Source: Alicyclobacillus sacchari
GTDB taxonomy: Bacteria; Bacillota; Bacilli; Alicyclobacillales; Alicyclobacillaceae
Reading direction: 5' to 3'
Length of the DNA: 64,000 nt
NCBI RefSeq assembly: GCF_004366795.1
Contig: NZ_SORF01000003.1
Coordinates: forward strand, 62,001 to 126,000
Positions 10,676 to 64,000 of the stretch are shown here, one piece after another. Made by a program: the position numbers and the translations under genes. How positions within the stretch are numbered: the first letter of the stretch is position 1; each line of letters starts with the position of its first letter. The notes beneath the pieces are model-generated. The model was not told the origin of the DNA. It saw only the letters and a list, made by a program, of their open reading frames with translations, and made no database searches.

Positions 10676-10803
10676 AAGGTCTTTGTAATCTTCATATACT
10701 TTGAGCGTGGACACGAAGATCCTAAGCCGGTAAAGTGGGCACATAGGCTTAGGGGAGTGAATTGTGCAACCGGCCACCCGATACTACATCTGGGTGGTTT
10801 TTG
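10676..10803 (+). ncRNA. Putative structured small RNA or terminated leader (about 125 nt)
   Basis: Starts a few bases after a perfect sigma-A promoter and ends in an intrinsic terminator: CCACCCGAT (10774-10782) pairs with ATC-T-GGGTGG (10788-10797), followed by TTTTT. Two further stems are visible: ATCTTC 10688-10693 with GAAGAT 10715-10720, and CCTAAGCC 10721-10728 with GGCTTAGG 10746-10753. The 5' arm of the terminator (GGCCACCCG, 10772-10780) is also complementary to CGGGTGGCC at 10864-10872, and GTGCAAC (10764-10770) to GTTGCAC (10821-10827), so readthrough RNA could fold differently. I do not recognise a known riboswitch, T-box or 6S RNA. It may be an independent sRNA or an attenuated leader of the small gene at 11079. 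Confidence 0.6.
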
Positions 10804-11004: not shown

Positions 11005-11063
11005 TTGACCCTTTGTATGCGTTTGTATACAATGATCTCGCAAATCGAATACATTTGTATACA
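11005..11063 (+). promoter_or_regulatory. Promoter with duplicated TTTGTATACA element
   Basis: TTGACC (11005-11010), a 17-bp spacer and TACAAT (11028-11033) form a likely sigma-A promoter. TTTGTATACA occurs at 11022-11031, overlapping the -10, and again at 11054-11063 just before the ribosome site; each contains the palindrome TGTATACA. The 32-bp offset is three helical turns, which suits a repressor binding on one DNA face. Confidence 0.6.
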
Positions 11064-11078
11064 GAGGAGTGTGTTGGC

Positions 11079-11471
11079 ATGCAACACGTTGACAGGGAAA
11101 CACACGACCATCACGGTTCACACGGCAGGCACCACAAACCTGGCAGAGCCCCGCACGATCACCCGAAACACGGGATCGGCCCACAAACGTTTCGCCGCGG
11201 GCGAGCACTGGCCTTTCTGGAAACGCTCAATGTGCGGCGCGCAACCCTGATCCGGCAATTGGAACAACCTGAACTCACATCCATTCATCCCGTGATCGCG
11301 GGCGAACTCAAGGCAGTTGACATGATGCGCGACGAGTTCATGGCTATGTTTGACCTCCGAGACACACAGGAAGACACAGACAACTACGAAGCGCCACAAA
11401 CCAAGCACACCACTCCACCCAACACAGAACAACCCATCGAACCAAGCGACCAAACTGAATCTGACGCATGA
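11079..11471 (+). CDS. Small His-rich hypothetical protein with conserved helical core
   Basis: 130 residues. The N-terminal ~35 residues are rich in His, Gly and Lys. A helical core (~35-90) begins Phe-Arg-Arg-Gly-Arg-Ala-Leu-Ala-Phe-Leu and contains Arg-Gln-Leu-Glu-Gln-Pro-Glu and Gly-Glu-Leu-Lys-Ala-Val-Asp; the C-terminal 40 residues are Thr/Pro/Gln-rich and probably disordered. The core resembles a helical segment I associate with some Firmicute PadR-like regulators, but no winged-helix domain is present, so I give no function. The ATG at 11079 follows AGAGGAG by about nine bases. Duplicated TGTATACA sites precede it. It converges on rpoN. Confidence 0.7.
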   Translation: MQHVDRETHDHHGSHGRHHKPGRAPHDHPKHGIGPQTFRRGRALAFLETLNVRRATLIRQLEQPELTSIHPVIAGELKAVDMMRDEFMAMFDLRDTQEDTDNYEAPQTKHTTPPNTEQPIEPSDQTESDA

Positions 11472-49317: not shown

Positions 49318-50385
49318 TCAGGCATTGCGCGACGATTCACGCACCATCTGCAGCACATCCTCCAACACGGCGCTCGCCGTGGGCAACGCACCTGCTCCCG
49401 GGCCAATCAAAGTGATGGTGCCCACCACGTCGCCCGTGATGGCAATGGCGTTGTTGACGCCATCGACGAAATAAAGCGGATCGTCAGGTTGCAGCACCTG
49501 CGGGCCAACCTCACAACGGACGATGCCATCATCGCCCCAGACCGCGGACGCAACATGTTTGACCTTGGCGCCCGACGCTTTGGCGGCTTCCATCTGTGCA
49601 GCCGTGATCGCGCTGATGCCGGCGCGCGGCTTCGTCAATACGGCTGTCGGAACGCCATTTCTCGCCATCTCGTTCGGCGACTGGCCGTCGGCGACACATT
49701 CTGTTGCCAACAGACGCGTATCCACGCGCAGCGCCTGCAGGAGAATTTGCAGCTTATAGTAGGCATCCAAGCCCTCGACATCCGCCGCGGGATCTGGCTC
49801 AGCATAGCCAAGTGCCTGCGCTTCCTGAAGCGCGCTGGCAAAGGCCGCCCCTGTCGCGTGCATCTGCGTGAGGATATAGTTGCACGTACCGTTGACGATG
49901 CCGCGCAAAGACTGCACGCGATTCAAGTCAAAGTAGGTATGCAAGGTATGTAAGACAGGAATGCCACCGAGCACACTCGCTTCATGGCGCAAGAACAGGC
50001 CGCGCTTACTCGCGAGATCGCGCAATTCCTCGCCATGGAGCGCCATCAAGGCCTTGTTCGCCGTGACGACCGACTTGCCGTTTTCCAGCGCGTGCCGCAC
50101 CACATCGTGCGCCACATCGATACCGCCCATAACCTCGATCACGATATCCACATCGTCCGCCTCGCACACGATGCGCCAGTCGTCCGTCAACAGGTGGCGC
50201 GGAACAAAATCCGGCCGGGGGCGCTCCAAGTGTCTCACGGCAATATGCGTAGCTTCCAGTTGCGCACCATCCCACGCACCTTGTCGATCCGCCAGCACCC
50301 GCAGCACACCACTTCCCACAACACCACATCCAACCAGACCCAGACGCACCTTGTTTGCCACCCGTCTCTCGCCGCCTCTCTCCAT
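49318..50385 (-). CDS. hom: Homoserine dehydrogenase without ACT domain
   Basis: 355 residues. Rossmann motif Gly-Leu-Val-Gly-Cys-Gly-Val-Val-Gly-Ser-Gly at the N-terminus, Ala-Asn-Lys-Ala-Leu (catalytic region), Gly-Gly-Ile-Pro-Val, Val-Asn-Gly-Thr-Cys-Asn-Tyr-Ile-Leu, and Gly-Tyr-Ala-Glu-Pro-Asp-Pro-Ala-Ala-Asp-Val-Glu-Gly-Leu-Asp. It reduces aspartate semialdehyde to homoserine for Thr/Met synthesis. Most Bacillus enzymes are ~430 residues with a C-terminal ACT domain; here it is missing, so threonine feedback may be absent. ATG 50385 or GTG 50361 could start translation; neither ribosome site is strong. It follows panD. Confidence 0.93.
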   Translation of the reverse strand: MERGGERRVANKVRLGLVGCGVVGSGVLRVLADRQGAWDGAQLEATHIAVRHLERPRPDFVPRHLLTDDWRIVCEADDVDIVIEVMGGIDVAHDVVRHALENGKSVVTANKALMALHGEELRDLASKRGLFLRHEASVLGGIPVLHTLHTYFDLNRVQSLRGIVNGTCNYILTQMHATGAAFASALQEAQALGYAEPDPAADVEGLDAYYKLQILLQALRVDTRLLATECVADGQSPNEMARNGVPTAVLTKPRAGISAITAAQMEAAKASGAKVKHVASAVWGDDGIVRCEVGPQVLQPDDPLYFVDGVNNAIAITGDVVGTITLIGPGAGALPTASAVLEDVLQMVRESSRNA

Positions 50386-50420
50386 ATGTAGACCCTAACG
50401 GATCGATTGCCTATTCAAAA

Positions 50421-50443
50421 AGGGCACCCCGTCGGGATGCCCT
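50421..50443 (-). terminator. Intrinsic terminator of panD
   Basis: On the minus strand a GC-rich stem (50443-50434 with 50429-50421) is followed by TTTTT. It lies just after panD and before hom, so hom may need readthrough or its own promoter. Confidence 0.8.
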
Positions 50444-50481
50444 TCCACTTCACCACCATGTAACTGGCTCGTTTACATCGG

Positions 50482-50883
50482 TCACGACGGCGTTTTGGCT
50501 AGACGCCGATTCTCTTCCGCCTCGCTGTCCAGATGTGTTTGTATGCGGTTGTTTTCGTCAACCAGCACCACGGTCGGTTCATGCTGTAAAGCGTCCGCAT
50601 GTTCGTACATCGCATAGGAAATGATGATGACCAAATCCCCTGGCTCTGCCAACCGCGCCGCCGCACCATTCAATCCAATGACGCCAGTACCTGCATCGCC
50701 CGGAATGACATATGTGTCAAAGCGCGCGCCCGTGTTGATATTCACCACCTGCACACGCTCATTTTCCAACAAATCCGCTGCTTCCATGAGGTCTGTATCA
50801 ATCGTGATACTCCCTACGTAATTGAGGTTTGTCTGCGTCACCGTTGCGCGATGGATCTTTGACTTCATCATCGTGCGGAACAC
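50482..50883 (-). CDS. panD: Aspartate 1-decarboxylase proenzyme
   Basis: About 133 residues. Decarboxylates aspartate to beta-alanine for pantothenate and CoA. Starting at the GTG at 50883 (GGAGGGG upstream), the self-cleavage Gly-Ser falls at residues 24-25 within Asn-Tyr-Val-Gly-Ser-Ile-Thr, exactly as in other PanD proteins, which settles the start. Lys9, Tyr58-region and the Gly-Asp-x-Val-Ile-Ile segment are conserved. Neither panB nor panC is next to it. Confidence 0.95.
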
Positions 50884-51103
50884 GCCAACCCCTCCGTTCC
50901 CCTTCTGTGCTGTCAGCAAGGCAATCAACCACTTGTCAAGGCGTTTTCCTCAGGCCATCTTACTCCCATCTACGCCCCATGACAAGTCAGAACAGACGGA
51001 AACGATGCCAGTACGTGCACAGGCCGGACAACTGTCCAGGGTGCAACACACGATATGATCTACAAGGTCTAATCCAATCACACAATGGCTCCGCTGCACA
51101 GCT

Positions 51104-52399
51104 TCATCTGGACACGGGCCGTCCGGCATTGGCTTGCTGAAGCCCCGTGCTTGGTCTGCGGACGCGAACAGCCATTGTCAACAAGACGGCAAGGACGAGA
51201 GACAGTGCCATGAAGACGTAGGATGCATTTGGGCCACCCGTTACGTTGTTGAGATAACCAACAAAATAGGATCCCACGAACGAACCCAAAGCGCCCATGC
51301 AATTGATGAGCGCCATGGCCACCCCTGCGACATTGCTGGGTAAAATCTCCGGCACGATCGCGAAAAACGGCCCGTACGGCGCATACATGGCTCCGCCAGC
51401 GATGACGAGCAGAATGAACGAAGTGGTGAAATGCCCAGACCCGAGGATATAGGAAAGGTAAAAGGCCACAGCGCCGATGAGCAATGAAACCCAAACATAC
51501 ACCTTGCGGGTATACGGCCGCCGATCCGACAGAAATGACGTGATCATCATGAGAATCGCGGCCAGTAAATACGGAACCGAAGATAACCAACCGGTGCTCA
51601 CAATGCCGACGTGCGACGCCGCCTTAATCATGGACGGCAGCCACAGGACGAAGCCATACACGCCAATACTCCAAAAGAAGTATTGCAAACTGAGTAACAC
51701 AACCGATCGGGACGAGAACGCTTCCCGATAACTTTTCACTTGTGCCATGCCCTCTTGTTCCGCTGCAAGCGCGGCTGTGACGGCTTGTTGCTCTTCTCGC
51801 GTCAGCCACCTGGTCTCTTCAGGTTTGTCTTTGACCACTGCCCACCAAATAAAGGCCCAGATGATGGAAGGGACGCCTTCAATCACAAACATGCCCTGCC
51901 AATGAAACCATTGAATCAGGTATCCTGAGATGACGGACATCCAGAGTACCGTAATGGGATTGCCGAGGATGAGAAACGTGTTCGCGCGGGATCGTTCTCC
52001 ATTGGTAAACCAATGGCTAATAAAAATCAGCATCGCAGGCATGACAACGCTTTCAACAATGCCAAGTAAAAACCTATCCACGTAGAGCAACGGCAGGTTG
52101 GTGATGAGGCCCTGCAAAGAGGCAAAGATGCCCCACAAAATGAGTGCCCAAAAGACAAGTTTCTTCGCGCTGTATTTTTTCGCATAGTGCGCACCCGGCA
52201 CCTGAAAGAAGAAGTACCCGAGGAAAAACAGCGAGGCCAATAAGGATGACGACGCTGCGTTCATATGCAAGGCCTGCTTCAATCCAGCCGCCGCACCCAA
52301 TCCGTAGTTTGACCTATCGAGGTACGCCAAGCTGTACGTGACGAAGATAGCAGGAATGAGTCTGGACCACCTTGATCTTGGAAACGACTGCTGCTCCAT
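51104..52399 (-). CDS. MFS transporter of the anion:cation symporter type
   Basis: About 431 residues with twelve helices. Tyr-Leu-Asp-Arg-Ser-Asn-Tyr-Gly in the first loop, Tyr-Phe-Phe-Phe-Gln-Val-Pro-Gly in helix 2, and Gly-Ile-Val-Glu-Ser in helix 4 are typical of the ACS family (hexuronate, tartrate, sugar acids). The ATG at 52399 follows GGGGGAG; an in-frame extension to 52597 runs through the operator. A LacI-family regulator with matching operators is upstream on the same strand, suggesting a sugar-acid uptake gene, though no catabolic enzymes adjoin it. Confidence 0.85.
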   Translation of the reverse strand: MEQQSFPRSRWSRLIPAIFVTYSLAYLDRSNYGLGAAAGLKQALHMNAASSSLLASLFFLGYFFFQVPGAHYAKKYSAKKLVFWALILWGIFASLQGLITNLPLLYVDRFLLGIVESVVMPAMLIFISHWFTNGERSRANTFLILGNPITVLWMSVISGYLIQWFHWQGMFVIEGVPSIIWAFIWWAVVKDKPEETRWLTREEQQAVTAALAAEQEGMAQVKSYREAFSSRSVVLLSLQYFFWSIGVYGFVLWLPSMIKAASHVGIVSTGWLSSVPYLLAAILMMITSFLSDRRPYTRKVYVWVSLLIGAVAFYLSYILGSGHFTTSFILLVIAGGAMYAPYGPFFAIVPEILPSNVAGVAMALINCMGALGSFVGSYFVGYLNNVTGGPNASYVFMALSLVLAVLLTMAVRVRRPSTGLQQANAGRPVSR

Positions 52400-52543
52400 G
52401 TGCATCTCCCCCTTGAAAGATGATTCAACCCTCCATCGTGCACGCGCGGATCGACCGCCATGTCGCACACCTTCAAGCATTCGCGACCCGAATGCTGGCT
52501 CACCCCCTTCAAGTTTCAGATACATTCCGGACAACGAGCCCTG

Positions 52544-52582
52544 TACATGGCACATGTATGCCGGTATGGTACCGGTTCCATA
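52544..52582. promoter_or_regulatory. LacI-type operator upstream of the MFS gene, with adjacent palindrome
   Basis: TATGGTACCGGTTCCATA (52565-52582) is a near-perfect 18-bp palindrome with a central CG, as LacI-family operators have. Six bases away is TACATG-GCA-CATGTA (52544-52558). Both lie upstream of the MFS start. The first closely resembles the site before the lacI-type gene at 53745. Confidence 0.65.
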
Positions 52583-52619
52583 CACGTCACGAACCATCGC
52601 TCGGCGCAGACCACGTGGC

Positions 52620-53669
52620 CTATGACGGCCGCCGCCTATTCAAGGACTGCCCAATGGCAACCTGCGGAGTTGAGCCTCGTTCCTTCAGCATGGCTGCGAC
52701 ATGGAACCGCTTCGCGTCACTCGTATCGCCCCCCAGTCGAGCAACGAGCCGATCCGCAGCCTTCACGCCCATTTCGTATGCCGATTGAGACACTGTGGTG
52801 ATCCCCACAATGTCGGCCCAGTCTGGATCGTCAAAGCTGATGAAGCCCACATCATAGGGAATGCGATAGCCGAGATTTTGCATGACCAACGCCGCCTTAA
52901 GCAATATCACGGCATTACCTGTGAAGACAGCCTTGGCCATGACAGGCTTTTTGTTCATAAAGGCTGTCATGCATTCGATCAACGACTGGTCACCCTCGAC
53001 TTGGAAAACGGGGCTATGCTCCTCGATTCCATGCTCCGCAACAAAGGATCGAAATGCTTGAACGCGCTCGATGCGCGTACTGATGTCTGCGGTAGGCGCT
53101 GTCACATAGGCAATGCTGCGGTACCCTTGGCGCACGAGGTAGTTGAGAGCATCATATGTCGCCTGGGTATTGTCCATACCGACGAGATCGACATGCATTC
53201 CAGATACGTCGCGATCGAGCAGCACGACCTGGGTCTTCTCCTTTTGCAAGGCAAGTAACATGCTCTGGTTGTAACCTGTTGTATGCATGATGAGACCGTC
53301 TATCTGATGTGAGCGGAGCGTGCGAATATAGTTCTGTTCCTTAGCGGGATCGTTGTCAGAGTTACAGACAAGCAGACTATAGTTGTGTTTGTGGCAAACG
53401 TCCTCGGCTCCACGTAGAATAGCTGTCGTAAACGGATTGGCGATGTCGGCGACAATGATGCCAATCAGCCTGCTTCGCTTTGCCTTTAATCCTCTTGCCA
53501 TTTGGCTGGGCTCGTAATGCAACCCTTGTATGGCCTGCTCAATCTTGCGATAGGTTTCTTCGGCAATATATTCCGTTTGGTGACTCAAGAAGCGAGAAAC
53601 GGTTGTCTTGGAAACACCTGCTGCTTTCGCTACATCGGCGATGGTGGGTCGACGACGACTATCCCTCAT
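52620..53669 (-). CDS. LacI-family transcriptional regulator (KdgR-like)
   Basis: 349 residues. N-terminal LacI helix-turn-helix Thr-Ile-Ala-Asp-Val-Ala-Lys-Ala-Ala-Gly-Val-Ser-Lys-Thr-Thr-Val-Ser-Arg, hinge helix with Met-Ala-Arg-Gly-Leu, then a periplasmic-binding-protein-like effector domain (~65-335). The 'Gln-Thr-Glu-Tyr' wing and Ile-Ala-Asn-Pro-Phe motif suggest the KdgR/sugar-acid subgroup. ATG at 53669 follows GAGGTGA by seven bases. Sits upstream of the MFS gene in the same direction. Confidence 0.93.
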   Translation of the reverse strand: MRDSRRRPTIADVAKAAGVSKTTVSRFLSHQTEYIAEETYRKIEQAIQGLHYEPSQMARGLKAKRSRLIGIIVADIANPFTTAILRGAEDVCHKHNYSLLVCNSDNDPAKEQNYIRTLRSHQIDGLIMHTTGYNQSMLLALQKEKTQVVLLDRDVSGMHVDLVGMDNTQATYDALNYLVRQGYRSIAYVTAPTADISTRIERVQAFRSFVAEHGIEEHSPVFQVEGDQSLIECMTAFMNKKPVMAKAVFTGNAVILLKAALVMQNLGYRIPYDVGFISFDDPDWADIVGITTVSQSAYEMGVKAADRLVARLGGDTSDAKRFHVAAMLKERGSTPQVAIGQSLNRRRPS

Positions 53670-53744
53670 CCGGCAATCACCTCGGTATTCGTGTCGTTAC
53701 GCGGTCGCTGGCGAGCGATGCGCGTAGACAGTCTGCGGGCACCT

Positions 53745-53764
53745 GTATGAAATCGGTTTCATAC
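53745..53764. promoter_or_regulatory. LacI-type operator upstream of its regulator
   Basis: GTATGAAATCGGTTTCATAC, a near-perfect 20-bp palindrome about 75 bp before the regulator start. It shares TATG-N3-A-N-CGGTT-N-CATA with the site at 52565, supporting autoregulation and control of the MFS gene by the same protein. Confidence 0.7.
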
Positions 53765-53934
53765 CACCAATATAGGATGGCGGCGGCTGGGGTGTCAATC
53801 TCATCGAACCAGACAGAAAGCAGACATTGGCACGCCAATGGCATATAAGCTACAAGTTCTTTTCCAACAGATTCGGTACAGCACGAACACACACCGCTTC
53901 TCACGATGCAGTCTGAATGACCGCCCTTCTTGCG

Positions 53935-54819
53935 TCATGTGTATTGTTGAATTGGCAGACTGCGAAGGGGATTCTGTTGCAGCATATTGGTAAACTCCTT
54001 CAGTGCGCTGGTCATCAGCGTATCCTTGTGTCGAATGAAATACGTTTTGGAGGAACTATATTGAGCTGGTACGGCAAAAGAGCGTACTAAACCCTTCTCT
54101 TCATATTTTTGAATTGCAGACTGTGGTACAAAGGACGCCCCGAGGCCCGAGATGACGCCTTGGATAATGGCATCAAGATGATTGAATTCCAGATACCGTA
54201 TGGAACGAATACCTATTGATTTCAACCAAATCTCAAGCTGTTCCCGGTGCGGGCAACCTATTGTATTCATGAGAAAGGGTTGATTGCATACCGATTGAAC
54301 ATCCTCCTTCTCAGGTCTGCTTATCAGCACGAGTTGTTCTTCAAATACGAGCTCCTGCACGATGTTGGCGTCTTCGAAGCCTGATTTCACAAATGCCCCG
54401 TCGAGTTCGAAGTGGCGGACCTTGTGAGCCAACGCGTCTGAGTAATCCGTTGTGAGTGACAATTCCACATTGGGATAGACTTTATGGTACTTTGCAAGAA
54501 TCATTGGGAGATGTATCGCGGATAACGTGTGATGAGCTCCTAGTTTGAGCCGACCCGTGGGTTCCGAGGCGTCGTTCAGCACTTGATGTGCCTCATCGAG
54601 CAAACGCACGACTCGTTCCGCATAATCTAACAGCTTCTCACCTGCCGGAGTTAGCACCATACCTCGTTGTCGGTAAAACAACTGTGTATGTAACTCAGCT
54701 TCCAGTTGTTGCACTCTAGCTGTTACGTTCGATTGTACATAACCAAGGATTTGAGCCGCCTTTGTAATGCTACCCTCTCTTGCAACAATCCGAAAAATCC
54801 GCAGCTCATTACTCTCCAT
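53935..54819 (-). CDS. LysR-family transcriptional regulator
   Basis: 294 residues. N-terminal helix-turn-helix (Ile-Thr-Lys-Ala-Ala-Gln-Ile-Leu, Gln-Ser-Asn-Val-Thr-Ala-Arg-Val) and a C-terminal effector domain with His-His-Thr-Leu-Ser-Ala-Ile-His-Leu-Pro. The Gly-Cys-Pro-His-Arg-Glu segment resembles the YwbI/CzcR group. Divergent from the DHA2 exporter gene with a 125-bp AT-rich gap, the usual arrangement for a LysR regulator and its target. Confidence 0.92.
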   Translation of the reverse strand: MESNELRIFRIVAREGSITKAAQILGYVQSNVTARVQQLEAELHTQLFYRQRGMVLTPAGEKLLDYAERVVRLLDEAHQVLNDASEPTGRLKLGAHHTLSAIHLPMILAKYHKVYPNVELSLTTDYSDALAHKVRHFELDGAFVKSGFEDANIVQELVFEEQLVLISRPEKEDVQSVCNQPFLMNTIGCPHREQLEIWLKSIGIRSIRYLEFNHLDAIIQGVISGLGASFVPQSAIQKYEEKGLVRSFAVPAQYSSSKTYFIRHKDTLMTSALKEFTNMLQQNPLRSLPIQQYT

Positions 54820-54944
54820 TTTACAACCCCCAACACATCTATCGTAAAAACCGAATCAAAATATCACTTATATTCATTTTACATGATACTTTTCCTCATG
54901 TACATTCGTGCACAGACAAAGCCACAATATTGGAGGAGTTATGC

Positions 54945-56384
54945 GTGACTAAGGAAAATACACGCAAGTGGGCCATTTTGGCTGTCGTTACACTTGTTTC
55001 GTTTGTGACAAACGTGGACGCAACCATCGTCGTGATCGGCCTTCCCACATTGATACGCGATTTGAAAATGACGATTGCAACAGGTATGTGGACCATCACT
55101 TCATACCTGGTTACAAGCACGATATTTTTACTTCCCGCAGGCCGGTGGGCTGATGTAGTTGGAACAAAGCGAATTTTTGTTTGGGGATTTGCGCTTTTCA
55201 CGATGGCTACAATTTGTTGCGGCCTGTCTCATTCCAGTGCCACACTCATTGGTTTTCGACTCATTCAGGGAGCAGGTGCGGCATTAGCCTTGGCCACGGC
55301 CACACCCATCATCATCCGAACATTCCCACGCGAGCAACTCGGATTCGCACTTGGAATCAACTCGACCTCATGGGTGATTGGCTCCATCGTAGGTCCGGTA
55401 GCCGGAGGCGCTCTCATTAGTGGTTTCGGATGGCGTTCCATTTTCTTTGTTTCCGCCCCATTTGCGCTCATAGGATTGCTTGGGGGATGGCTCCTACGAA
55501 AAGAACCGACTGCACAAATACGATCCAAAACGGATTGGACGGGTACTTTCACGTTTGGATTGGGACTGACCTCACTGTTGATGGCGTTCTCTCAAGCGCC
55601 GGTTTGGGGTTGGACATCCATGAGCGTTCTAGGACTCTTCGGAATCACCGGATTGTGTTGGATAGCATTTGTCATCGTGGAATCCAAGGTCCAGGATCCA
55701 CTTTTCAACCTCAAGTTATTTTCTTACAGACATTACACGACGGGACTAGGAATGACTCTGTGCTATTGCATCGGGTATTTTTCCATAAGCACGTTACTCG
55801 CATTATACCTACAAGGCGCACAACACCTAAGCCCGTTCCGGTCGGGGCTACTACTTCTGCCATTGTCAGCCCCTCAACTGTTGATGGGCCCGTTTGGCGG
55901 CAAATTAGCTGACCGTCTCGGCCCTGTAAGGTTGCTACTCGTCGGAATAACCGTGATTGCGTTCGCTGTATTACTCCTCGGAAACATCGGAGAGCGAACA
56001 TCTATTCCATACATTACTATCCCATTGTTCATCATTTCCGTGGCGAACGGTTTGGCGTGGCCATCACTAGCGAAAGCAGTCCTCTCCGCTGCGCCCCAGG
56101 AACAAGCAGGATTGGCATCAGGAATGTTCTACACGGTTTACAATATTGGTCGGGCTGTGAGTCAATCACTTGCACTCATGATGGTTGAGCTTAGCGTAAC
56201 ACCTCGCATCGCATCTCAAATGTTCATTGGGATGGGGATGCAGACCATAACCACGAAGAGTGCCTTCGTGCATGTGACGGACACGGGGTTTCGAATGTAC
56301 ACTTTATTCTTCGTGGTCGCCTTACTACTCGGATTCTTTTTGCTGCGTCCGCAAAGGCTCAAAACGATATTACGGAACCAATAA
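54945..56384 (+). CDS. DHA2-family MFS drug exporter
   Basis: About 479 residues with fourteen predicted helices, the DHA2 (QacA/EmrB) layout. Asn-Val-Asp-Ala-Thr-Ile-Val lies in helix 1, Gly-Arg-Trp-Ala-Asp-Val-Val-Gly-Thr-Lys-Arg in loop 2-3, and Gln-Gly-Ala-Gly-Ala-Ala in helix 4. The GTG at 54945 follows GGAGGAG by six bases. Probably controlled by the divergent LysR protein. The AT content is higher than in neighbours, so this pair may have been acquired. Confidence 0.88.
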   Translation: MTKENTRKWAILAVVTLVSFVTNVDATIVVIGLPTLIRDLKMTIATGMWTITSYLVTSTIFLLPAGRWADVVGTKRIFVWGFALFTMATICCGLSHSSATLIGFRLIQGAGAALALATATPIIIRTFPREQLGFALGINSTSWVIGSIVGPVAGGALISGFGWRSIFFVSAPFALIGLLGGWLLRKEPTAQIRSKTDWTGTFTFGLGLTSLLMAFSQAPVWGWTSMSVLGLFGITGLCWIAFVIVESKVQDPLFNLKLFSYRHYTTGLGMTLCYCIGYFSISTLLALYLQGAQHLSPFRSGLLLLPLSAPQLLMGPFGGKLADRLGPVRLLLVGITVIAFAVLLLGNIGERTSIPYITIPLFIISVANGLAWPSLAKAVLSAAPQEQAGLASGMFYTVYNIGRAVSQSLALMMVELSVTPRIASQMFIGMGMQTITTKSAFVHVTDTGFRMYTLFFVVALLLGFFLLRPQRLKTILRNQ

Positions 56385-56432
56385 CATGAAACACACCTGT
56401 TCCCAGCATCCCCCTCAGCTTAAAGATGCAGA

Positions 56433-56462
56433 AAAACGCAGCGCTCTGATATGCTGCGTTTT
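56433..56462. terminator. Bidirectional terminator after the DHA2 exporter
   Basis: AAAACGCAGC (56433-56442) pairs with GCTGCGTTTT (56453-56462), giving U-runs on both strands. Confidence 0.85.
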
Positions 56463-56741
56463 CGATGTTTATGCAGTTTGAAAGGAGCGGTTTATTGCGC
56501 ATTCGCTACCGTTACCTCAGAATGAGAACCGCAGAAAGCCCTCCGCCGGAACGCATCGTGCCATACGCTGCATGTCGGAGACCAGGGGCATCAATCGCTT
56601 TTCCACCACACCAGTAAACCATACAAGCAAAACACACGGTCCGGTCACCCATTGCGCTTGACGCAGACAAGCGCTAAGTTGGAAACTGGCGCCCATGCGA
56701 CAAAACGGGGTGCCTATCCTGCAGGTGGGGAGCCCACACGT
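56463..56741. other. Intergenic region before the next MFS gene
   Basis: About 280 bp. An AAAGGAG site at 56481 precedes a 40-codon frame from TTG 56495 to 56617, but the encoded peptide is Pro/Arg-rich and unrecognised, so I do not call it a gene. No strong promoter was seen. Confidence 0.4.
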
Positions 56742-57995
56742 ATGAATCGATCGCGCAACCTGACCCACACACAGCCTCTTCCCAAAGAGTCGTATGCGTT
56801 TATCCTCGCAAGTCTGGTCAATTCGATTGGCAGTGCCCTCATCTGGCCGCTCACGACCATTTACGTGCACAATGTTCTGCACCGCAATTACGCAGATGCC
56901 GGGATCGCATTATTCTTTCAATCACTTGCCACCATCGTCGGCCAGGTGATGGGCGGGGCACTTTATGCCCGTCTTGGCCCACGCAAGCTCATCATCGGTT
57001 CGCTCGTCCTGACTGGCTGTGCGCAGTGGAGTCTCATCTTCGCCCGCACATGGCCGACATATGTTTGCGCCATGACCGTCAACGCCTTTCTCATTGCGAT
57101 CACGATGCCCGCAGTCAGCGGCTTTGTTGGACAAAGATGGCGGGCCGTGAGCACACGACTTTTCAACGTGATGTACGTCAGCAACAACGTAGGTGTAGCC
57201 ATCGGCACCACGCTTGCAGGAATCCTGGCGTCCATCTCGTTTTCGTTTACGTTTCTCATCAACGGCATCTCCACGTTGATCTTTGCAGGCTTCCTCACCA
57301 TATTTATGCGCCGGTTCTCGACCGACGAGTTGGAGGACTGGCAGGCAGGATTCGGCACTGCACGACAGGAAAGCCCCAAGCTCCTGCTCACCCGGTACCA
57401 GTTGTACGCATTTGTCGGCATCGGCTACATGCTCTTGAACCTGGCGACCTCGGCCTGGAACTCCGGTGTCGCGCCGTATCTGAATCAGGCTGGGCAGCCA
57501 CCTGCTTCATACAGCCTGCTATGGACCGTGAACGGCATCGTCATTCTCGTAGGGCAACCGATGACCGCCTTCATCAACCGGCGGCTGACACCATCCCTCC
57601 CGTCGCGGCTGACTGCAAGCGCTGTACTCTATGGCTGTGCCTATGCGATCATGTGGACGACCCACGCGACCTATGCGTTCCTCATCGTGGGTATGGTGGT
57701 TGCCACGCTCGGCGAAATGCTCATCGCCCCCACCGTTCCGGCGCTGATTACCGCGACTGCTCGCCAGCATGCCGCTTTTTATCTCGGCGTGTCCGGCGGT
57801 ATCGCCAGCGTCGGCCGCCTCATTGGCCCCGTCTTGTTTGGCACGTTGTTCGATCACGCCGGCCTTCCTCCGATTCTCTGGGTGGCCATTGGCGCATGTG
57901 CTGGTGCCGTCATGGCCTTCATCGTGCAGCAACGGTTAGCACAAGAGGCGCCCCATGCGTCGTACGAGCGTACGGATGAGATGAGCGGATTGTAG
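56742..57995 (+). CDS. MFS transporter (multidrug-type)
   Basis: About 417 residues with twelve helices. Loop 2-3 reads Gly-Gly-Ala-Leu-Tyr-Ala-Arg-Leu-Gly-Pro-Arg-Lys; Ser-Asn-Asn-Val-Gly-Val-Ala-Ile-Gly lies in helix 5. Resembles DHA1 drug transporters. The ATG at 56742 is preceded by GGTGGGGAG at a rather long distance; the frame extends to 56652. Converges on the M29-like gene with 56 bp between stops. Confidence 0.83.
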   Translation: MNRSRNLTHTQPLPKESYAFILASLVNSIGSALIWPLTTIYVHNVLHRNYADAGIALFFQSLATIVGQVMGGALYARLGPRKLIIGSLVLTGCAQWSLIFARTWPTYVCAMTVNAFLIAITMPAVSGFVGQRWRAVSTRLFNVMYVSNNVGVAIGTTLAGILASISFSFTFLINGISTLIFAGFLTIFMRRFSTDELEDWQAGFGTARQESPKLLLTRYQLYAFVGIGYMLLNLATSAWNSGVAPYLNQAGQPPASYSLLWTVNGIVILVGQPMTAFINRRLTPSLPSRLTASAVLYGCAYAIMWTTHATYAFLIVGMVVATLGEMLIAPTVPALITATARQHAAFYLGVSGGIASVGRLIGPVLFGTLFDHAGLPPILWVAIGACAGAVMAFIVQQRLAQEAPHASYERTDEMSGL

Positions 57996-58051
57996 AATGA
58001 CGCGTTCCTCGCGGCGCTTTTCGCAACAGAGCACATCCCTCTCCGCCATGG

Positions 58052-59005
58052 CTACACGAGCAGTTGTCCGTCCTGCATCACGATTTCATCGTCTAGATAC
58101 AGCGTCGGCGCCAGCATCACGACATCCAGGTGCACCCCTGCTTCAACCGTGCCGCCAAACGTCGCATTGCTGCCAAACGCCACATGCACCGTCCCAAGCG
58201 CCTTTTCATCCTCCAGAATGACGCCCGTCAGCCTGGCCTTATCGTTCGTGCCAATGCCAAGCTCCGCGACGTTCCGTGCGGCGGGCGTATCTCCAAGCAT
58301 CATCAGCCACTCGTCCGCGCGCTCACCCTCCGCGGCGACAAGCAATCCTTCGCGCACCGTGAGCCGCACCGGACTCTTAAGAAGGCCAATTCCCGCCAGC
58401 GATCCGTCCACCACCAGCTCCCCTGTTGCCGTTCCTTCCACCGGTGCGAGATACGCCTCGCCTGACGGCGCATTGCCTGCTTCTCCCGGATGACGATAGA
58501 CACCCGTGCTCGCGATCCCCTGCCTGCCCGCCAGGGAGCAGGTGAACACGGCGCCATCCTTTTCAATGCGTGCAACCCGCGCCCGCGTCAGCCGATCCGC
58601 CACCTTGTGCGTCAATGCCGCCACAGCCGAAAAGTCCGCCGACATCGGTCCATGCTCAAACATATCCTCCGTCACACCGGGCATCGTCGCCACGCGCGCC
58701 CCTGCTTCCGATGCCCGCTTGCGCGCCTGCGTATGCGTGAGCGATCGCAATGTTGGGCAGACCACGACATCAGCCGCGGCCATCGCTGCCGCAACGACCG
58801 CCGGCGGCTCTGCCCCGTTCTTCTCCCGCGGCTCCATCTCCATGATGATCGATTCCGCACCGATGTCCCGACCAGCCTGGCACAGGCTGCGGCAAATGGC
58901 ATCCCGTGTCCCATCTGAGACAATCAACAATGTTTCGCCCGCCTGCAATCCCATCGCGTGCAACAGCATGTTACGAGCTGAATCCAAGAGTGCCATCGCG
59001 CTCAT
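58052..59005 (-). CDS. M29-like aminopeptidase family protein
   Basis: About 317 residues, shorter than the 410-residue M29 enzymes and closer to the COG2309 group that also includes aromatic-ring dioxygenase relatives. C-terminal motifs Glu-Leu-Gly-Ile-Gly-Thr-Asn, Glu-Asp-Glu-Lys-Ala-Leu-Gly-Thr-Val-His-Val-Ala-Phe-Gly and Gly-Val-His-Leu-Asp-Val-Val hold the likely metal ligands. Substrate unknown. The ATG at 59005 is close to AAAGG; ATG 58996 is an alternative. A terminator-like hairpin lies directly before the start. Confidence 0.8.
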   Translation of the reverse strand: MSAMALLDSARNMLLHAMGLQAGETLLIVSDGTRDAICRSLCQAGRDIGAESIIMEMEPREKNGAEPPAVVAAAMAAADVVVCPTLRSLTHTQARKRASEAGARVATMPGVTEDMFEHGPMSADFSAVAALTHKVADRLTRARVARIEKDGAVFTCSLAGRQGIASTGVYRHPGEAGNAPSGEAYLAPVEGTATGELVVDGSLAGIGLLKSPVRLTVREGLLVAAEGERADEWLMMLGDTPAARNVAELGIGTNDKARLTGVILEDEKALGTVHVAFGSNATFGGTVEAGVHLDVVMLAPTLYLDDEIVMQDGQLLV

Positions 59006-59022
59006 CTTTCCTTTCAAAAAGC

Positions 59023-59044
59023 CCCACCCGTCACCGGATGGGGT
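59023..59044 (-). terminator. Intrinsic terminator or attenuator before the M29-like gene
   Basis: On minus, CCCCATCCG-gtga-CGGGTGGGG followed by CTTTTT, only 18 bases before the start at 59005. It may simply end the upstream gene, or it may attenuate transcription into the peptidase gene; its U-run nearly touches the ribosome site. Confidence 0.75.
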
Positions 59045-59073
59045 CATCATCGCTAGCCTTTTCACATCAGGAT

Positions 59074-59532
59074 TCAATTGATGGTAATTGAAATGGAGAT
59101 ATTTCCTTTGCCACCCTTATGCCTTGGTTCACCGAGCACGTATTTGACTTGATCGGAAGCAGCCATGTAAATCCACAGAATGAACAGAATGATTTCACCG
59201 ACATACGGCAACAGCATGAACCATAGCCAATGGCCACTTTTCCCGAAGGCATTGAGGAATTTGACATACCAGATGATTGCGAAAACAACATTGGCAATTG
59301 GGATTAACAGAAACAATAGATTCCACGCCGATTTTCGTATCGTCCACATGTACGGAATCGCGCCTAACACGGGAATCCAGGCAAACCACCGTAAAGCCGT
59401 CCCAGCCTTACCGTACAACACAAAACATGTCGCGCTGTGGATGAGATAGGAGGCGATCATATAAAAAACAAAAACCGCAACCATCACGAACAACCAACCC
59501 TCCCGACCCAGAACCATGTATTTTCTATGCAT
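59074..59532 (-). CDS. Small membrane protein (DUF5684-like)
   Basis: Up to 152 residues with four hydrophobic segments, including Trp-Ile-Pro-Val-Leu-Gly-Ala-Ile-Pro and Leu-Leu-Ile-Pro-Ile-Ala-Asn-Val-Val-Phe-Ala-Ile-Ile, a pattern of DUF5684 proteins. The C-terminus has a signal-peptidase-like tail with Lys/Gly residues. The start is doubtful: ATG 59532 lies two bases after a TATAAT, so translation more likely begins at ATG 59517 or at GTG/ATG 59487/59484, after GGGAGGG. Confidence 0.65.
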   Translation of the reverse strand: MHRKYMVLGREGWLFVMVAVFVFYMIASYLIHSATCFVLYGKAGTALRWFAWIPVLGAIPYMWTIRKSAWNLLFLLIPIANVVFAIIWYVKFLNAFGKSGHWLWFMLLPYVGEIILFILWIYMAASDQVKYVLGEPRHKGGKGNISISITIN

Positions 59533-59864
59533 TATACTCAGAGTATACCATAATATGTTCGGGCCAGGGCATGATTGGATATTGATACAGCGTCAAGACC
59601 GTCAAGTCGGCACGGATGACCATTCCTCTCTATCTGTCTGATCAAGCTGTGTTCGAACCGCTGTCTGCGCTGACACTTCCCACCCGTGATCTCAAGGACA
59701 ACGTTCCCCTGCAGATTGGGCTGGATTACACCATCATACACTGTAACTAGGGCATCGCTAGAAAGCAACTGTTTACCGTTCCATGGCGACTACGTTGCTA
59801 CACACCGACAAAAAGCCCGCTCATTTCGAGCGGGCTCGTATATCACATTCTGCTCTTGATTGTA
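59533..59864. other. Intergenic region with terminator
   Basis: About 330 bp. It contains AGCCCGCT (59814-59821)/AGCGGGCT (59829-59836), followed on minus by TTTTTG: the intrinsic terminator of the gene ending at 59865. A 76-codon minus-strand frame (59538-59768) has no ribosome site and no recognisable sequence. Confidence 0.7.
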
Positions 59865-60620
59865 TCAACCTGCTGAATTGGTTGTGCCGTTTGACGCATC
59901 CGTCGCATTGGAAGAAGTGTTCCCTGTCGTATTGCTCGTCGTCACCGTCACGCCACCCGTGCTGTTCGTCGTTGTATTGCTTGTGGTGTTGGTGCTGTTG
60001 CTCGTAGGCGTGGTGTCGTTGCTCGTGCCATTCGACGTGCTTACCGTCACACCGCCAGTCGCATTCGTACTGCTCGATGCCTGAACGGCAGCTTCAGCCT
60101 TGCTCCAGTTGGCTTGTAGTTGTGCGAGTGCTTGTTGCACCTGTGCTTCATAGGTTGTAATCGCGGCCGTGATGGCTGCTTGATTGCCTTTCGCCTTGGC
60201 AATGGCACGCTCAAGCTGTCCATGCGCCTGTGCAATCTTCACATTCGTCTCCGCAGTTAGCCGATTTGCCGTCTGCATCAGGACCAAGGGTTGTTTATCA
60301 TCATCACCCTTTTTCTGCTGATCCTTTGCATCGCGCTTGTCGTCCTTGTCTTGCCACTTACCGTGTCCACGCACGTCATCTCCACTCGTATTCGCGGTTG
60401 CACCTTCACTGGTAGATGTGCTCGCAGTGGAAGTGCCCAACGCGGCATTTGACGTGGAATTCGCGTTGATGTCCGTGGACAGCGTCCACCCTTGTCCATG
60501 TCCAGGATGGGCAGGATGCACGTTACCCCGCGTCGCGGCATACGCGACCGATGTAGCAGAAGCAATGACAATCACTGCGGCTCCGATAGACATCATAGAT
60601 TTCTTTGTCATGCGGCCCAT
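59865..60620 (-). CDS. Secreted low-complexity protein under c-di-GMP riboswitch control
   Basis: 251 residues. Signal peptide (1-29, Ala-Tyr-Ala-Ala), a Ser/Thr/Asn-rich stretch (~45-80), a Lys/Asp-rich charged stretch (~82-110), a helical core (~112-180: Gln-Thr-Ala-Asn-Arg-Leu-Thr-Ala-Glu, Gln-Ala-His-Gly-Gln-Leu-Glu), and a C-terminal Asn/Thr/Ser/Gly tail with two Gly-Gly-Val-Thr-Val segments. It looks like a surface or matrix protein (weak resemblance to DUF5667). GGAGG lies eight bases before the ATG. A cyclic-di-GMP-I riboswitch sits in its leader. Confidence 0.75.
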   Translation of the reverse strand: MGRMTKKSMMSIGAAVIVIASATSVAYAATRGNVHPAHPGHGQGWTLSTDINANSTSNAALGTSTASTSTSEGATANTSGDDVRGHGKWQDKDDKRDAKDQQKKGDDDKQPLVLMQTANRLTAETNVKIAQAHGQLERAIAKAKGNQAAITAAITTYEAQVQQALAQLQANWSKAEAAVQASSSTNATGGVTVSTSNGTSNDTTPTSNSTNTTSNTTTNSTGGVTVTTSNTTGNTSSNATDASNGTTNSAG

Positions 60621-60669
60621 GTCTGAAATCCTCCCGAATAAGTCGATTGGCGGTCATTGGGCCCAAGCG

Positions 60670-60753
60670 GGCAACTGGCTGACATCATCCATAGGGATGA
60701 AGCCCCTGTAGCTTTGCGTCCCATACTTTCGCATGGTTTGCTTTTGACCTGCC
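60670..60753 (-). ncRNA. Cyclic-di-GMP-I (GEMM-I) riboswitch
   Basis: On the minus strand the leader contains AAGCAAACC, a P2 stem CCAT-gcGAAAgt-ATGG capped by the GAAA tetraloop, then GGGACGCAAAGC, a second stem built on GGGG/CCC, and the closing GCCAGTTGCC. All are hallmark elements of the GEMM-I aptamer, including the tetraloop that docks into P3. The P1 stem is GGCAG (60753-60749) with TTGCC. About 50 bases separate it from the ATG at 60620, where GGGAGG could be masked by the expression platform. Whether c-di-GMP turns the gene on or off cannot be told. Confidence 0.92.
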
Positions 60754-60954
60754 TAGTAGACTATTCGAAGACTAGTAGAGATATGTGGCCGTGCTGCCTA
60801 ACTAAACCGCCTTCCCGAAAACTACGCTGAAGACCAGTCTAAGCGCCACGAAGGAGCAAGACCACCGGATTTGTTTGAAAAAAGCGGCCATTCCTCGATG
60901 GCCTTTGCTCCTGTAAGCGGGTTACATGCCGGTCAGGAAAGTGTTCACTTGCCA
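60754..60954. other. Upstream leader region and terminator of the glycosyltransferase
   Basis: Holds GGCCAT (60885-60890)/ATGGCC (60897-60902), followed on minus by GCTTTTTTC: the terminator of the glycosyltransferase ending at 60955. The riboswitch promoter must lie between about 60760 and 60870. A CTACTAGTC...GAC(T)AGTAG-like repeat around 60752-60778 is also visible. Confidence 0.6.
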
Positions 60955-61671
60955 TCAACCTGCATACGGCTCGATGCAATACCTGTTTTGATTCTTATCA
61001 TAACGAATAACCTTGGCAAATCCAGGAACATCGATCCCTCTGGCCAGATAATGGGCAGCAAACGACGTTTCATAGAATACCGTTGGCCGCATACTATGTG
61101 TGCGCTGTAGGTTGCTGTTCTGAATCGCGTGCCAGAGGACTCTATCCCCAATTACCGACACCCCTGACCTTACTGCAGAGTTGCCTCGCAATCCCCAGGC
61201 GGATAAAATGTAGAAAGCGCTATCGAAAAACATGTAGCAGTTGGAATCCACGAAATTTAGGCCGTCGCACTCTGTACAGACGCCTAGAACCTCTCCTGTG
61301 TCTGGCCGACAGAGGTATCTAGATGAGGTCACCACGTCCGCACCGCTTGAGCGTCCAAGTGAGTACAAAGTCTCAATATGATTTTCAGCATACCAATTGT
61401 CGGCATCAAGGAATAGAACAGCCTCAAACTGCAGTCCGGCTGCGGACGCTGCTCCGATAAGCCTAGGGGTATCGCCAAAGTCACTGTGCGGTAATGGGAG
61501 CGTTATATGTTGCGTCCTCGGCCATGAGTCAATGTCTTCCTGTCTCCGCCCATCTCCAACGAATATATGAATGACGTCTTTGTAGGACTGATCAAGAACA
61601 CTACGATGGCACCGTGCGAGCTTTTCGATAGGTTCTTCAAAGTACGGCGTCACCACTGCAAACCTCAACAC
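60955..61671 (-). CDS. Family 2 glycosyltransferase
   Basis: About 238 residues, a single GT-A domain. N-terminal Val-Val-Thr-Pro-Tyr-Phe-Glu-Glu, then the nucleotide-sugar DXD site Phe-Leu-Asp-Ala-Asp-Asn, and Gly-Asp-Arg-Val-Leu-Trp near the catalytic base. A Cys-x9-Cys-x2-Cys cluster (Tyr-Leu-Cys-Arg, Gly-Val-Cys-Thr-Glu-Cys-Asp) is unusual and could bind metal. No membrane segment. TTG 61674, GTG 61671 or an internal GTG are possible starts. Probably modifies a surface protein or glycan with its neighbour upstream. Confidence 0.82.
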   Translation of the reverse strand: MLRFAVVTPYFEEPIEKLARCHRSVLDQSYKDVIHIFVGDGRRQEDIDSWPRTQHITLPLPHSDFGDTPRLIGAASAAGLQFEAVLFLDADNWYAENHIETLYSLGRSSGADVVTSSRYLCRPDTGEVLGVCTECDGLNFVDSNCYMFFDSAFYILSAWGLRGNSAVRSGVSVIGDRVLWHAIQNSNLQRTHSMRPTVFYETSFAAHYLARGIDVPGFAKVIRYDKNQNRYCIEPYAG

Positions 61672-61674
61672 CAA

Positions 61675-62027
61675 CCACCACCACTTAGAAAAAAGTTATG
61701 CGTCTGAAAAAAGAAACCATCACAACAAGCATAACTGAAATCAACAGAAATTGACACAATATAAGATGAAAGGATCGCACCCAATGCCACAGCGCTGCAC
61801 CTTTTGGGGTACACGCGCGCACTTCAGATTCAGGGTCCCCTGAGCAGCATAAGTAGTAACTTCACCCTCCCCAATTTAGGGACCTTTCCAGGAGGCCTCC
61901 GTACAACTACTGGAGACGTCCACGAAACAAAAAATAACGCTCTAAGCAGAGGATTATGGTATCTGTTGACCGTGCGCACAGTTAGCTCAATGCCAAGGCA
62001 TTTGGTGTGGGAAGGCCCAGATCCACT
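61675..62027. other. Intergenic region between two glycosyltransferase genes
   Basis: About 350 bp, AT-rich near 61680-61770. No gene, terminator or promoter can be called with confidence. A plus-strand frame of 75 codons (61804-62031) has no ribosome site. Confidence 0.45.
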
Positions 62028-63479
62028 CTAATCGCCCTGTTTGTCCCGCTCTTGTTGAATCATTCGCGCTTGATTTCGCAGCCATTCAATCTGCCCCGCT
62101 ATAGAGGCGTTTTCCGGTGAGCGTGACAAAGCATCCTCGTATAGCTTGAGCGCGTTGTAACTGTTGCCGAGTAACTTTTCCACATCCGCGATCGCTGCCG
62201 TCGAACGCCATGTGAGAATTTGCGGGTCAAACGCCACCATCCCCCGGTAGCCTACCGCACTCTCCTGCGCCTTCGTAAAGGCCTCTTTCGCCTGCCCTAG
62301 CTCATGTATCGCGGTATTCATCAGAGCACGTCCTAACGCGAACCATGTACCTGGATAATTCGGATGCTCCGCCTTTGCCCGCTCTCCAACCGCAATGGCC
62401 TCAGCGCGGCGGCCGAGTGCCACAAGGGCATCGATGAGGAACATACGAACCTCAGGCAAACGAGCATACTGCGGATTGCTCGGAGCAAGCCGCTCGGTCG
62501 TATAAAGAGCATTGACAGCCTCCTCGACGTGACCGGCCAAGAGTAAATCGCGACCAAGGAATCCCCATGACGCGATATCGTTTGGATTATCACGTACCGC
62601 GGCACGCAGCAAGTGGATGTTCCGCTGAAGCTTTTGCTTCGAATTCATGACCTCCGGCTTGTAGCCATCGTGACGAACGCGAATGCGCACAGCGGGTCTC
62701 ACAAAGTTGCCCGCAAATACGCCGCCCTCCGGCAGGCCGATCTGTTCGTGGATACGTCCCAGCCAACGCAGGCCTGTCCGCACCGCGAATAAGCGAGACA
62801 TATCGTAGTTTGGCTCAACGCGATCATCGAATACATTGATCTGCCCAATGCGAAGGATAGCGGGAGGTTCAAGTTGGTTAAACAACCCCGCGACGATACG
62901 TGGATTCTCGACGTCTTCCTCGAACAACACCTCATCGGCATCTACCCAGAGAACCCAATCAGACGATACCTGATCCAGCGCAAAATTCCTGGCAGCGGCG
63001 AAGTCATCGTTCCACTCGTACCGAAACACCTTCGCACCGGCGGCCTCCGCAATTGCAACCGTGTCGTCGGTACTTCCTGTGTCCACAACGATAATTTCGT
63101 CGACTGCAGGAGAGAGTGCGGCTACTGCTTTGCCAATGGTTCTGGCCTCGTTTTTGGCGATCATTGCTGCCGAAATCGTGACGTGCGGGACGGCTAACAG
63201 TTCTTGAATCCAGACCGGCGTCTTTCCCGTCAGTCGCTCGCGTAAGCGCATCCTCGCAGGTTCTGCCCACTCTGCCTGGGGATCCAAGAGCCATGCGCGA
63301 TTATATGCCGCCCAAGCGGCATCATATTCTCCTAAATGCTCAAGCGATTCTCCAAGAAACTCCCAGAGTTGGGCGTTGAGCTTCCCCTTATCCCGTAACG
63401 ATTCTACAGCCAAAGTTTTAGCTTCACCATAGCCCCCCCGCAAGAGTTGATCCTTAACTGCATCGACAGCAGGAACCAC
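62028..63479 (-). CDS. TPR-containing family 2 glycosyltransferase
   Basis: About 483 residues. A TPR pair (~5-75), a GT2 catalytic domain (~100-290) with Ala-Ala-Met-Ile-Ala-Lys-Asn-Glu, Val-Asp-Thr-Gly-Ser-Thr-Asp-Asp-Thr and the DXD Trp-Val-Asp-Ala-Asp-Glu, then further TPRs (~310-480). This is the layout of protein-modifying glycosyltransferases such as SunS-type and Ser/Thr-rich surface protein transferases. The neighbouring Thr/Ser-rich protein genes are plausible acceptors. GTG 63479 is favoured; the frame opens at 63527. Confidence 0.87.
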   Translation of the reverse strand: MVPAVDAVKDQLLRGGYGEAKTLAVESLRDKGKLNAQLWEFLGESLEHLGEYDAAWAAYNRAWLLDPQAEWAEPARMRLRERLTGKTPVWIQELLAVPHVTISAAMIAKNEARTIGKAVAALSPAVDEIIVVDTGSTDDTVAIAEAAGAKVFRYEWNDDFAAARNFALDQVSSDWVLWVDADEVLFEEDVENPRIVAGLFNQLEPPAILRIGQINVFDDRVEPNYDMSRLFAVRTGLRWLGRIHEQIGLPEGGVFAGNFVRPAVRIRVRHDGYKPEVMNSKQKLQRNIHLLRAAVRDNPNDIASWGFLGRDLLLAGHVEEAVNALYTTERLAPSNPQYARLPEVRMFLIDALVALGRRAEAIAVGERAKAEHPNYPGTWFALGRALMNTAIHELGQAKEAFTKAQESAVGYRGMVAFDPQILTWRSTAAIADVEKLLGNSYNALKLYEDALSRSPENASIAGQIEWLRNQARMIQQERDKQGD

Positions 63480-63643
63480 GTTACCTAGCACCCCCGAGCA
63501 TAGTAAAGCGCAGTGAATGGTATGCACATAGAGTGTAGCTTACAAATCAAAGTTTGCAAGGGCGATCATGCGAATAACAGTAGTAGAAGATGATTCCAAT
63601 CTGACAATACACGACCTCACGAGTTCAACTACACCTCCTTCAA

Positions 63644-63676
63644 AAAGGAGCTGTTCGGAATCCGAACAGCTCCTTT
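63644..63676 (-). terminator. Strong intrinsic terminator
   Basis: A perfect 16-bp stem, AAAGGAGCTGTTCGGA (63644-63659) with its complement (63661-63676), followed on minus by TTTTTG. It ends the partial gene at 63703. Confidence 0.9.
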
Positions 63677-63702
63677 CGAATACAGGTAATGCTCCTAGCA
63701 AG

Positions 63703-64000
63703 TTAGTTGTTAACAACTTGAATGGTCGCCGTAACTCCATTTGAAGTCACAAATGTGACGGTGGCCGTACCCTTTTCAGGCTCGGCATATACTGTACTGC
63801 CGCTTACTGCTACCACACTCGAGTTGTTAGAGAACCAATACCCTGATGCGCCACTTACCGCTACGCCATACTGATCCTTGACGCTCAGAAGATTCTGTAG
63901 TGCGGTAGTAATTGCCGTTGCAGTGTTTGGTGTAGTTTCCGTGAAGGAAGCCTCACTGAACGATGCCGACGCAGGTGCCGGCGGGGTCGTGCTCACCGTT
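63703..64000 (-). CDS. C-terminal part of a surface protein with bacterial Ig-like domain
   Basis: The last ~98 residues of a gene that continues past the window edge. A Thr/Pro/Ala/Ser-rich linker (Thr-Thr-Pro-Pro-Ala-Pro) precedes an Ig-like beta-sandwich with Leu-Ser-Val-Lys-Asp-Gln-Tyr-Gly and Gly-Thr-Ala-Thr-Val-Thr-Phe. These domains are typical of S-layer or surface-attached proteins. The adjacent TPR-glycosyltransferase may act on it. The frame is open to the window end, so the start is outside. Confidence 0.75.
   Translation of the reverse strand, partial: TVSTTPPAPASASFSEASFTETTPNTATAITTALQNLLSVKDQYGVAVSGASGYWFSNNSSVVAVSGSTVYAEPEKGTATVTFVTSNGVTATIQVVNN

Follow-up and report, generated by a model that had tools for sequence, protein, structure and literature searches.

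A cyclic-di-GMP-I (GEMM-I) riboswitch aptamer lies directly 5′ of a gene for a Ser/Thr/Asn-rich protein in the 64,000-nucleotide stretch of Alicyclobacillus sacchari DNA analysed here (the window), and the base of its ligand pocket equivalent to G20 of Vc2 is an A. The riboswitch is a further example of an established class, with one pocket letter altered. On balance, we favour a reading in which it controls translation of a secreted protein, would still respond to c-di-GMP but with changed affinity or selectivity, and would act as an ON switch through a closing helix, P1.

The aptamer was located with an Rfam covariance search, which matched model RF01051 with 60.9 bits (gathering score 35 bits; E 1.8e-9 for the 64 kb window and 4227 families) in a full-length alignment covering model positions 1–87 of 87. 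Specifically, the aligned aptamer shows a GAAA-capped P2, the junction (GCAAA, GACGCAAAG) and the CC of the ligand strand, which we take to be C92 and C93 of Vc2; the base just 5′ of GCAAAC is presumably Vc2 position 20. Within the clan, the aptamer (L003) is assigned to RF01051 and not to c-di-GMP-I-GGC (RF03167). A chance match was rejected, since the score stands 25.9 bits above the cut-off and the linkage to the gene is kept among orthologues. The earlier note had read a GEMM-I riboswitch in the interval 60620–60753, bounded by the start codon and the 5′ end of the aptamer, and had named a covariance search as the check and a low score as the refutation; the high score over the full model bears this reading out. 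Its description of the core match as close stands for the covariance score, the junction and the CC, but fails at the specificity base, where A replaces G, and on the P3 side opposite the GAAA loop, which reads CUUC- versus CUAA in the model. This unusual P3 side is shared by orthologues that have G20.

Table 1 Features of the riboswitch locus in window coordinates.
Feature	Position	Strand	Basis or remark
GEMM-I (c-di-GMP-I) aptamer	60667..60752	minus	RF01051
Proposed P1, 5′ strand GGCAGGUCA	60745..60753	minus	duplex with 60649–60656
A at the equivalent of Vc2 G20	60742	minus	model column 11, a conserved G
CC of the ligand strand	60670..60671	minus	model columns 83–84
Possible hairpin GCCC-GCUU-GGGC, which would occupy the ligand-strand CC	60661..60672	minus	predicted structures of G003 and G006
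GGCCCA, able to pair with UGGGCC (60619–60614) at the start codon	60658..60663	minus	minimum-energy fold of G000
Proposed P1, 3′ strand UGACCGCC	60649..60656	minus	duplex and compensatory changes among orthologues
Shine-Dalgarno GGGAGGA	60629..60635	minus	8 nt 5′ of the ATG, from sequence
251-aa ORF: signal-peptide-like start, helical hairpin 90–183, Ser/Thr/Asn-rich tail 183–251	59865..60620	minus	
Terminator-like hairpin 5′ of the leader	60886..60903	minus	
Terminator-like hairpin 3′ of the gene	59815..59831	minus	

The aptamer ends 46 nt 5′ of the ATG at 60620, and this arrangement is conserved. Searching 61 genomes, its own included, with the window protein returned seven matches in six genomes; the match in G035 (E 5.7e-4, 57 residues, in the low-complexity tail) was left out, and the six orthologues kept come from the window genome (G000), A. 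tengchongensis (G006), G003, G014 (two copies, a and b) and G001. All six have a GEMM-I aptamer directly 5′ of the gene, with the start codon 45–64 nt past it, and the proposed link between riboswitch and gene is thus supported by their joint occurrence at six loci in five genomes. The protein of A. tengchongensis CGMCC1504 is 83% identical to that of the window, and leader and gene together share 84.9% DNA identity with its locus over 892 bp. When window positions 50001–64000 were compared, this similarity stops at 60755, at the 5′ end of P1, while two further blocks, 56614–58999 and 52258–53800, also match the A. tengchongensis locus. This joint conservation of leader and gene, together with the intact junction and the sharing of the unusual P3 by G20 orthologues, speaks against an aptamer that is decaying and no longer regulates its gene; the score, among the lower ones of the genus (best 79.7 bits), the derived A20 and the atypical P3 side would suit such decay, which we nonetheless hold to be very improbable. 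Terminator-like hairpins stand on both sides of leader and gene, so a transcript with this single gene is likely, although such hairpins are no more frequent in the region than chance predicts (2 found, 1.9 expected). No consensus promoter site was found directly 5′ of the leader; transcription is predicted to begin near 60755. In G003, a group II intron (group-II-D1D4-3, 135 bits; L070:4037-4209, plus strand) starts about 150 nt past the orthologous gene, near the contig end.

The 251-codon ORF, which stops at 59865, is present, and its product is probably secreted, judging from a signal peptide recognised by eye at its start. Ser, Thr and Asn make up 38.3% of residues 30–251 and 72.5% of residues 183–251, against a mean of 15.6% (s.d. 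6.2, maximum 35.1) in the 48 stop-to-stop frames of the window that are 250 aa or longer, a background that probably includes the ORF's own frame; the composition of the tail agrees with the earlier description of a Ser/Thr-rich protein. No Pfam or NCBIfam family reached its cut-off for the window protein and the four orthologues of G003, G014 (both copies) and G001, and RolB_RolC, Herpes_UL25, TraP and other weak matches, all below their cut-offs, were rejected as names for the protein. The alignment of the six orthologues shows a conserved block at about residues 121–168. The AlphaFold2 model is of poor quality as a whole (mean pLDDT 48.7, pTM 0.33), with pLDDT below 50 over most of the protein outside residues 111–180; for these residues the block means are 73–88, and the model places helices at 90–143 and 147–183. 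If exported, a protein built of such a hairpin and a polar tail would fit a component of the cell surface or matrix.

The A at the pocket position (pattern match G000:C3:122712-122742, equal to window 60712–60742) takes the place of the G20 usual in c-di-GMP-selective members and is the base that marks GEMM-Ib. According to PMC9262584, this position is a selectivity factor and not a hard filter; A20 therefore leaves membership of the GEMM-I class standing. With A at this position, we propose altered affinity or selectivity. In the same source, changing the equivalent position of Cd1 to A (G11A) or C had no large effect on c-di-GMP binding. PMC9049102 gives 4900 nM for c-di-GMP with a G20A/C92U double mutant versus 0.011 nM for the wild type; unlike in that mutant, position 92 is unchanged in the window aptamer. 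Among the orthologues, A20 occurs in A. sacchari and A. tengchongensis, and G20 in G003, G001 and both copies of G014. This split among orthologues of one gene offers a small natural experiment on ligand choice or sensitivity within a riboswitch class. We counted 61 GEMM-I aptamers in 14 of 15 genus genomes, three of them in the window assembly; A20 is present in four of the 61, namely the window aptamer, its G006 orthologue and one other locus each in G001 and G005, while ten fell outside the motif pattern and were read by eye as G20. The two other loci are L038:1501-1584 (minus strand, G001), 5′ of a gene that looks by eye like a chemotaxis transducer, and L048:506-588 (plus strand, G005), 5′ of a SinR-like gene; a further G005 aptamer, G005:C19:30707, has G20. 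A sample of 398 genomes of the class has 30 occurrences of the A20 pattern, spread over 25 genomes, and 160 genomes with the G20 pattern. A20 is a minority natural form that occurs beyond the window locus.

The same base raises the question of cGAMP. The substitution might have moved an ancestral c-di-GMP switch to 3′,3′-cGAMP in this lineage, giving a riboswitch of GEMM-Ib type: G000 and G006 have A20 where the remaining four orthologues have G20, the CC strand is preserved, and the A20G change makes a c-di-GMP switch out of a cGAMP switch of Geobacter, as reported in PMC6456294. We regard this as improbable, given the lack of a large effect of the equivalent Cd1 change, the recurrence of A20 in 25 of the 398 class genomes and the synthases encoded by G000 and G006. 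Hypr GGDEF enzymes carry Ser in place of the Asp of ordinary GGDEF (PMC6456294). In the window genome, 11 of 12 GGDEF loci have the Asp of an ordinary c-di-GMP synthase and L083 is degenerate; L075 and L082 lie in one protein and returned the same motif, its weaker domain not being read separately. G006 is similar: 11 of its 12 loci have Asp, with two lying in a single protein, and L137 is degenerate. No Hypr-type Ser was thus seen in the recognised GGDEF motifs of either genome, and SMODS was found in neither, occurring in one of the 15 genus genomes (G013). This survey of GGDEF and SMODS speaks against a dedicated cGAMP pathway, though a promiscuous or other synthase may exist. As the search for Hypr-type GGDEF and SMODS synthases found neither, we rate altered sensing of c-di-GMP above a cGAMP switch, and the window aptamer is predicted most likely to bind c-di-GMP with changed affinity or selectivity. 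Equally doubtful to us is a wider version, in which a G20 switch became, in the lineage of A. sacchari and A. tengchongensis, an A20 switch that answers 3′,3′-cGAMP or several cyclic dinucleotides, with the distal helix gating the ribosome-binding site. If true, Alicyclobacillus would have gene control of the cGAMP type in genomes whose search for known cGAMP synthases found none.

How the preferred c-di-GMP-class switch might work is suggested by the proposed closing helix P1, which would join the extreme 5′ end to a 3′ strand that starts 13 nt past the ligand-strand CC. In 1000 dinucleotide shuffles of the downstream strand, a helix as good or better arose 32, 192, 34, 19 and 11 times for G000, G006, G003, G014a and G014b, respectively, so that P1 of G006 taken alone is not unusual. 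Comparison of the orthologues supports the helix: its third pair is U-A in G003 versus C-G in G000 and G006, and two adjacent pairs, U-A and C-G in one G014 copy, are C-G and U-A in the other, making three compensated pairs in total. The register differs between the G000 and G014 types, and the G001 leader is without P1; in its place, a stem and then a U-run come 5′ of the Shine-Dalgarno sequence (SD) and were read by eye as a terminator. We dropped the idea of an intrinsic-terminator platform in the window leader, where no stem with a T-run was found between aptamer and ATG (60667–60620). A distal P1 as a peculiarity of the window gene was also rejected: a coarse survey of the 61 aptamers of the genus gave 49 duplexes of −6 kcal/mol or better, of which 24 lie at least 8 nt away, 5 at 4–7 nt and 20 adjacent, and distance alone therefore says little.

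In the proposed mechanism, binding of a c-di-GMP-class ligand would hold the three-way junction and favour P1, which would keep the leader beyond it from pairing with the ribosome-binding region and so raise translation. We modelled folding with P1 forced and the pocket CC kept unpaired, and compared it with folding in which the 5′ strand was blocked. The mean unpaired probability of the SD rose with P1 in all five leaders, from 0.42 to 0.53 (G000), 0.34 to 0.41 (G006), 0.47 to 0.64 (G003), 0.24 to 0.71 (G014a) and 0.21 to 0.85 (G014b); the effect is small in G000. Relative to the unconstrained ensemble the gain was 0.06 in G000, 0.05 in G006, none in G003, 0.23 in G014a and 0.27 in G014b. The G014 copies carry a CCUCC anti-SD that overlaps the 3′ strand of P1, and the competition between P1 and anti-SD is therefore plain. 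When the pocket was fixed but P1 left free, SD accessibility did not change consistently across the six leaders, and this folding was rejected as a guide to direction. Sequestration of the ribosome-binding site was likewise dropped as a proven element, the pairing between leader and ribosome-binding region being equalled in 278 (G000), 306, 281, 519 and 684 of 1000 shuffles.

The main rival to ON control is a translational OFF switch, in which the ligand would take the CC from the GCCC/GGGC hairpin and thereby free GGCCCA to cover the start codon. The GGCCCA:UGGGCC pair is present in the minimum-energy fold of G000, and both the GCCC-GCUU-GGGC hairpin and GGCCCA are identical in G000, G006 and G003. 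Additionally, P1 lowers start-codon accessibility in G000 (0.37 to 0.11) and G003 (0.43 to 0.01), whereas it raises it in the other three leaders. This reading appears rather unlikely to us: SD accessibility moves the opposite way, the pairing of the ribosome-binding region is no better than in shuffles, and the GGCCCA pairing is absent from the G014 leaders, which have the CCUCC element. We take a translational ON switch to be the most likely mode of action, a choice we make with modest confidence.

Other cyclic-dinucleotide switches were seen along the way. In the window, a c-di-GMP-II aptamer (10700–10784, plus strand, 61.9 bits) stands about 230 nt 5′ of a His-rich 152-codon ORF (11013–11471, plus strand) for which no Pfam match was found at E 0.1. 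Also in the window, a c-di-AMP aptamer (24791–24647, minus strand, 84.4 bits) lies directly 5′ of a 416-aa ORF (aptamer and ORF within 24791–23404, minus strand) that resembles by eye the ATPase of an osmolyte ABC transporter. The other two GEMM-I aptamers of the genome precede two genes: one for a 662-aa protein that by eye resembles a chemotaxis transducer, the other for a long protein of PAS/GGDEF/EAL type, in which GGDEF was found by search and the rest was read by eye. In five genus genomes (G001, G003, G004, G005 and G008) GEMM-I precedes genes for SinR-like regulators, at L048, L049, L052, L060 and L064, the label resting on inspection by eye for the last three. At L049:442-1154 (G003:C32:246041), an ORF at 556–747 between the aptamer and the SinR-like gene (816–1154; HTH_3, 67.3 bits) is SinI-like, with a Pfam SinI score of 31.3 bits at a cut-off of 31.4; masked or undetermined bases 5′ of this locus (L139, G003:C32:244000-249000) translate as X. 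A sinIR-type biofilm switch under the influence of c-di-GMP would be a worthwhile study subject. In G001, a c-di-GMP-I-GGC aptamer with T at position 20 (L057:2499-2574, minus strand; G001:C1:4371299; 62.5 bits, cut-off 59) precedes ORFs resembling, by eye, folE and queD.

The earlier interpretation, that the second messenger is linked to surface composition, is plausible and goes beyond the evidence for ligand and protein. If true, an exported protein of Alicyclobacillus would be linked directly to signalling by cyclic dinucleotides; no such control was apparent in the listed titles and abstract openings of literature on Alicyclobacillus and c-di-GMP. Compared with the RF01051 members Vc2 of Vibrio cholerae and Cd1 of Clostridioides difficile, the window aptamer agrees in its full-length covariance match, GAAA-capped P2, A-rich junction and CC strand, and differs in A20, in the CUUC- of P3 and in the distance of the proposed closing helix from the ligand strand. 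It shares A20 with the GEMM-Ib cGAMP riboswitches of Geobacter as described in PMC6456294, but differs in the Hypr and SMODS synthases, neither of which was found in the window genome. c-di-GMP-I-GGC, of the same clan, is approached by the leader of the G014 C16 orthologue (L007), which scores 60.3 with that model at a cut-off of 59. Among the systems compared, the closest worked-out parallel is cbpA of the Bacillus cereus group, where, according to PMC7423583, the GEMM-I switch Bc2 lies 5′ of a collagen-binding surface protein and exerts ON control. Both are cases of GEMM-I 5′ of an exported (for the window, probably exported) protein in Bacilli, conserved with the gene; CbpA is described as cell wall-anchored, with binding domains and under transcriptional control, whereas no domain was recognised in the window protein and its proposed switch is translational. 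The window riboswitch is ordinary in kind, its points of interest being A20 and the proposed closing helix.
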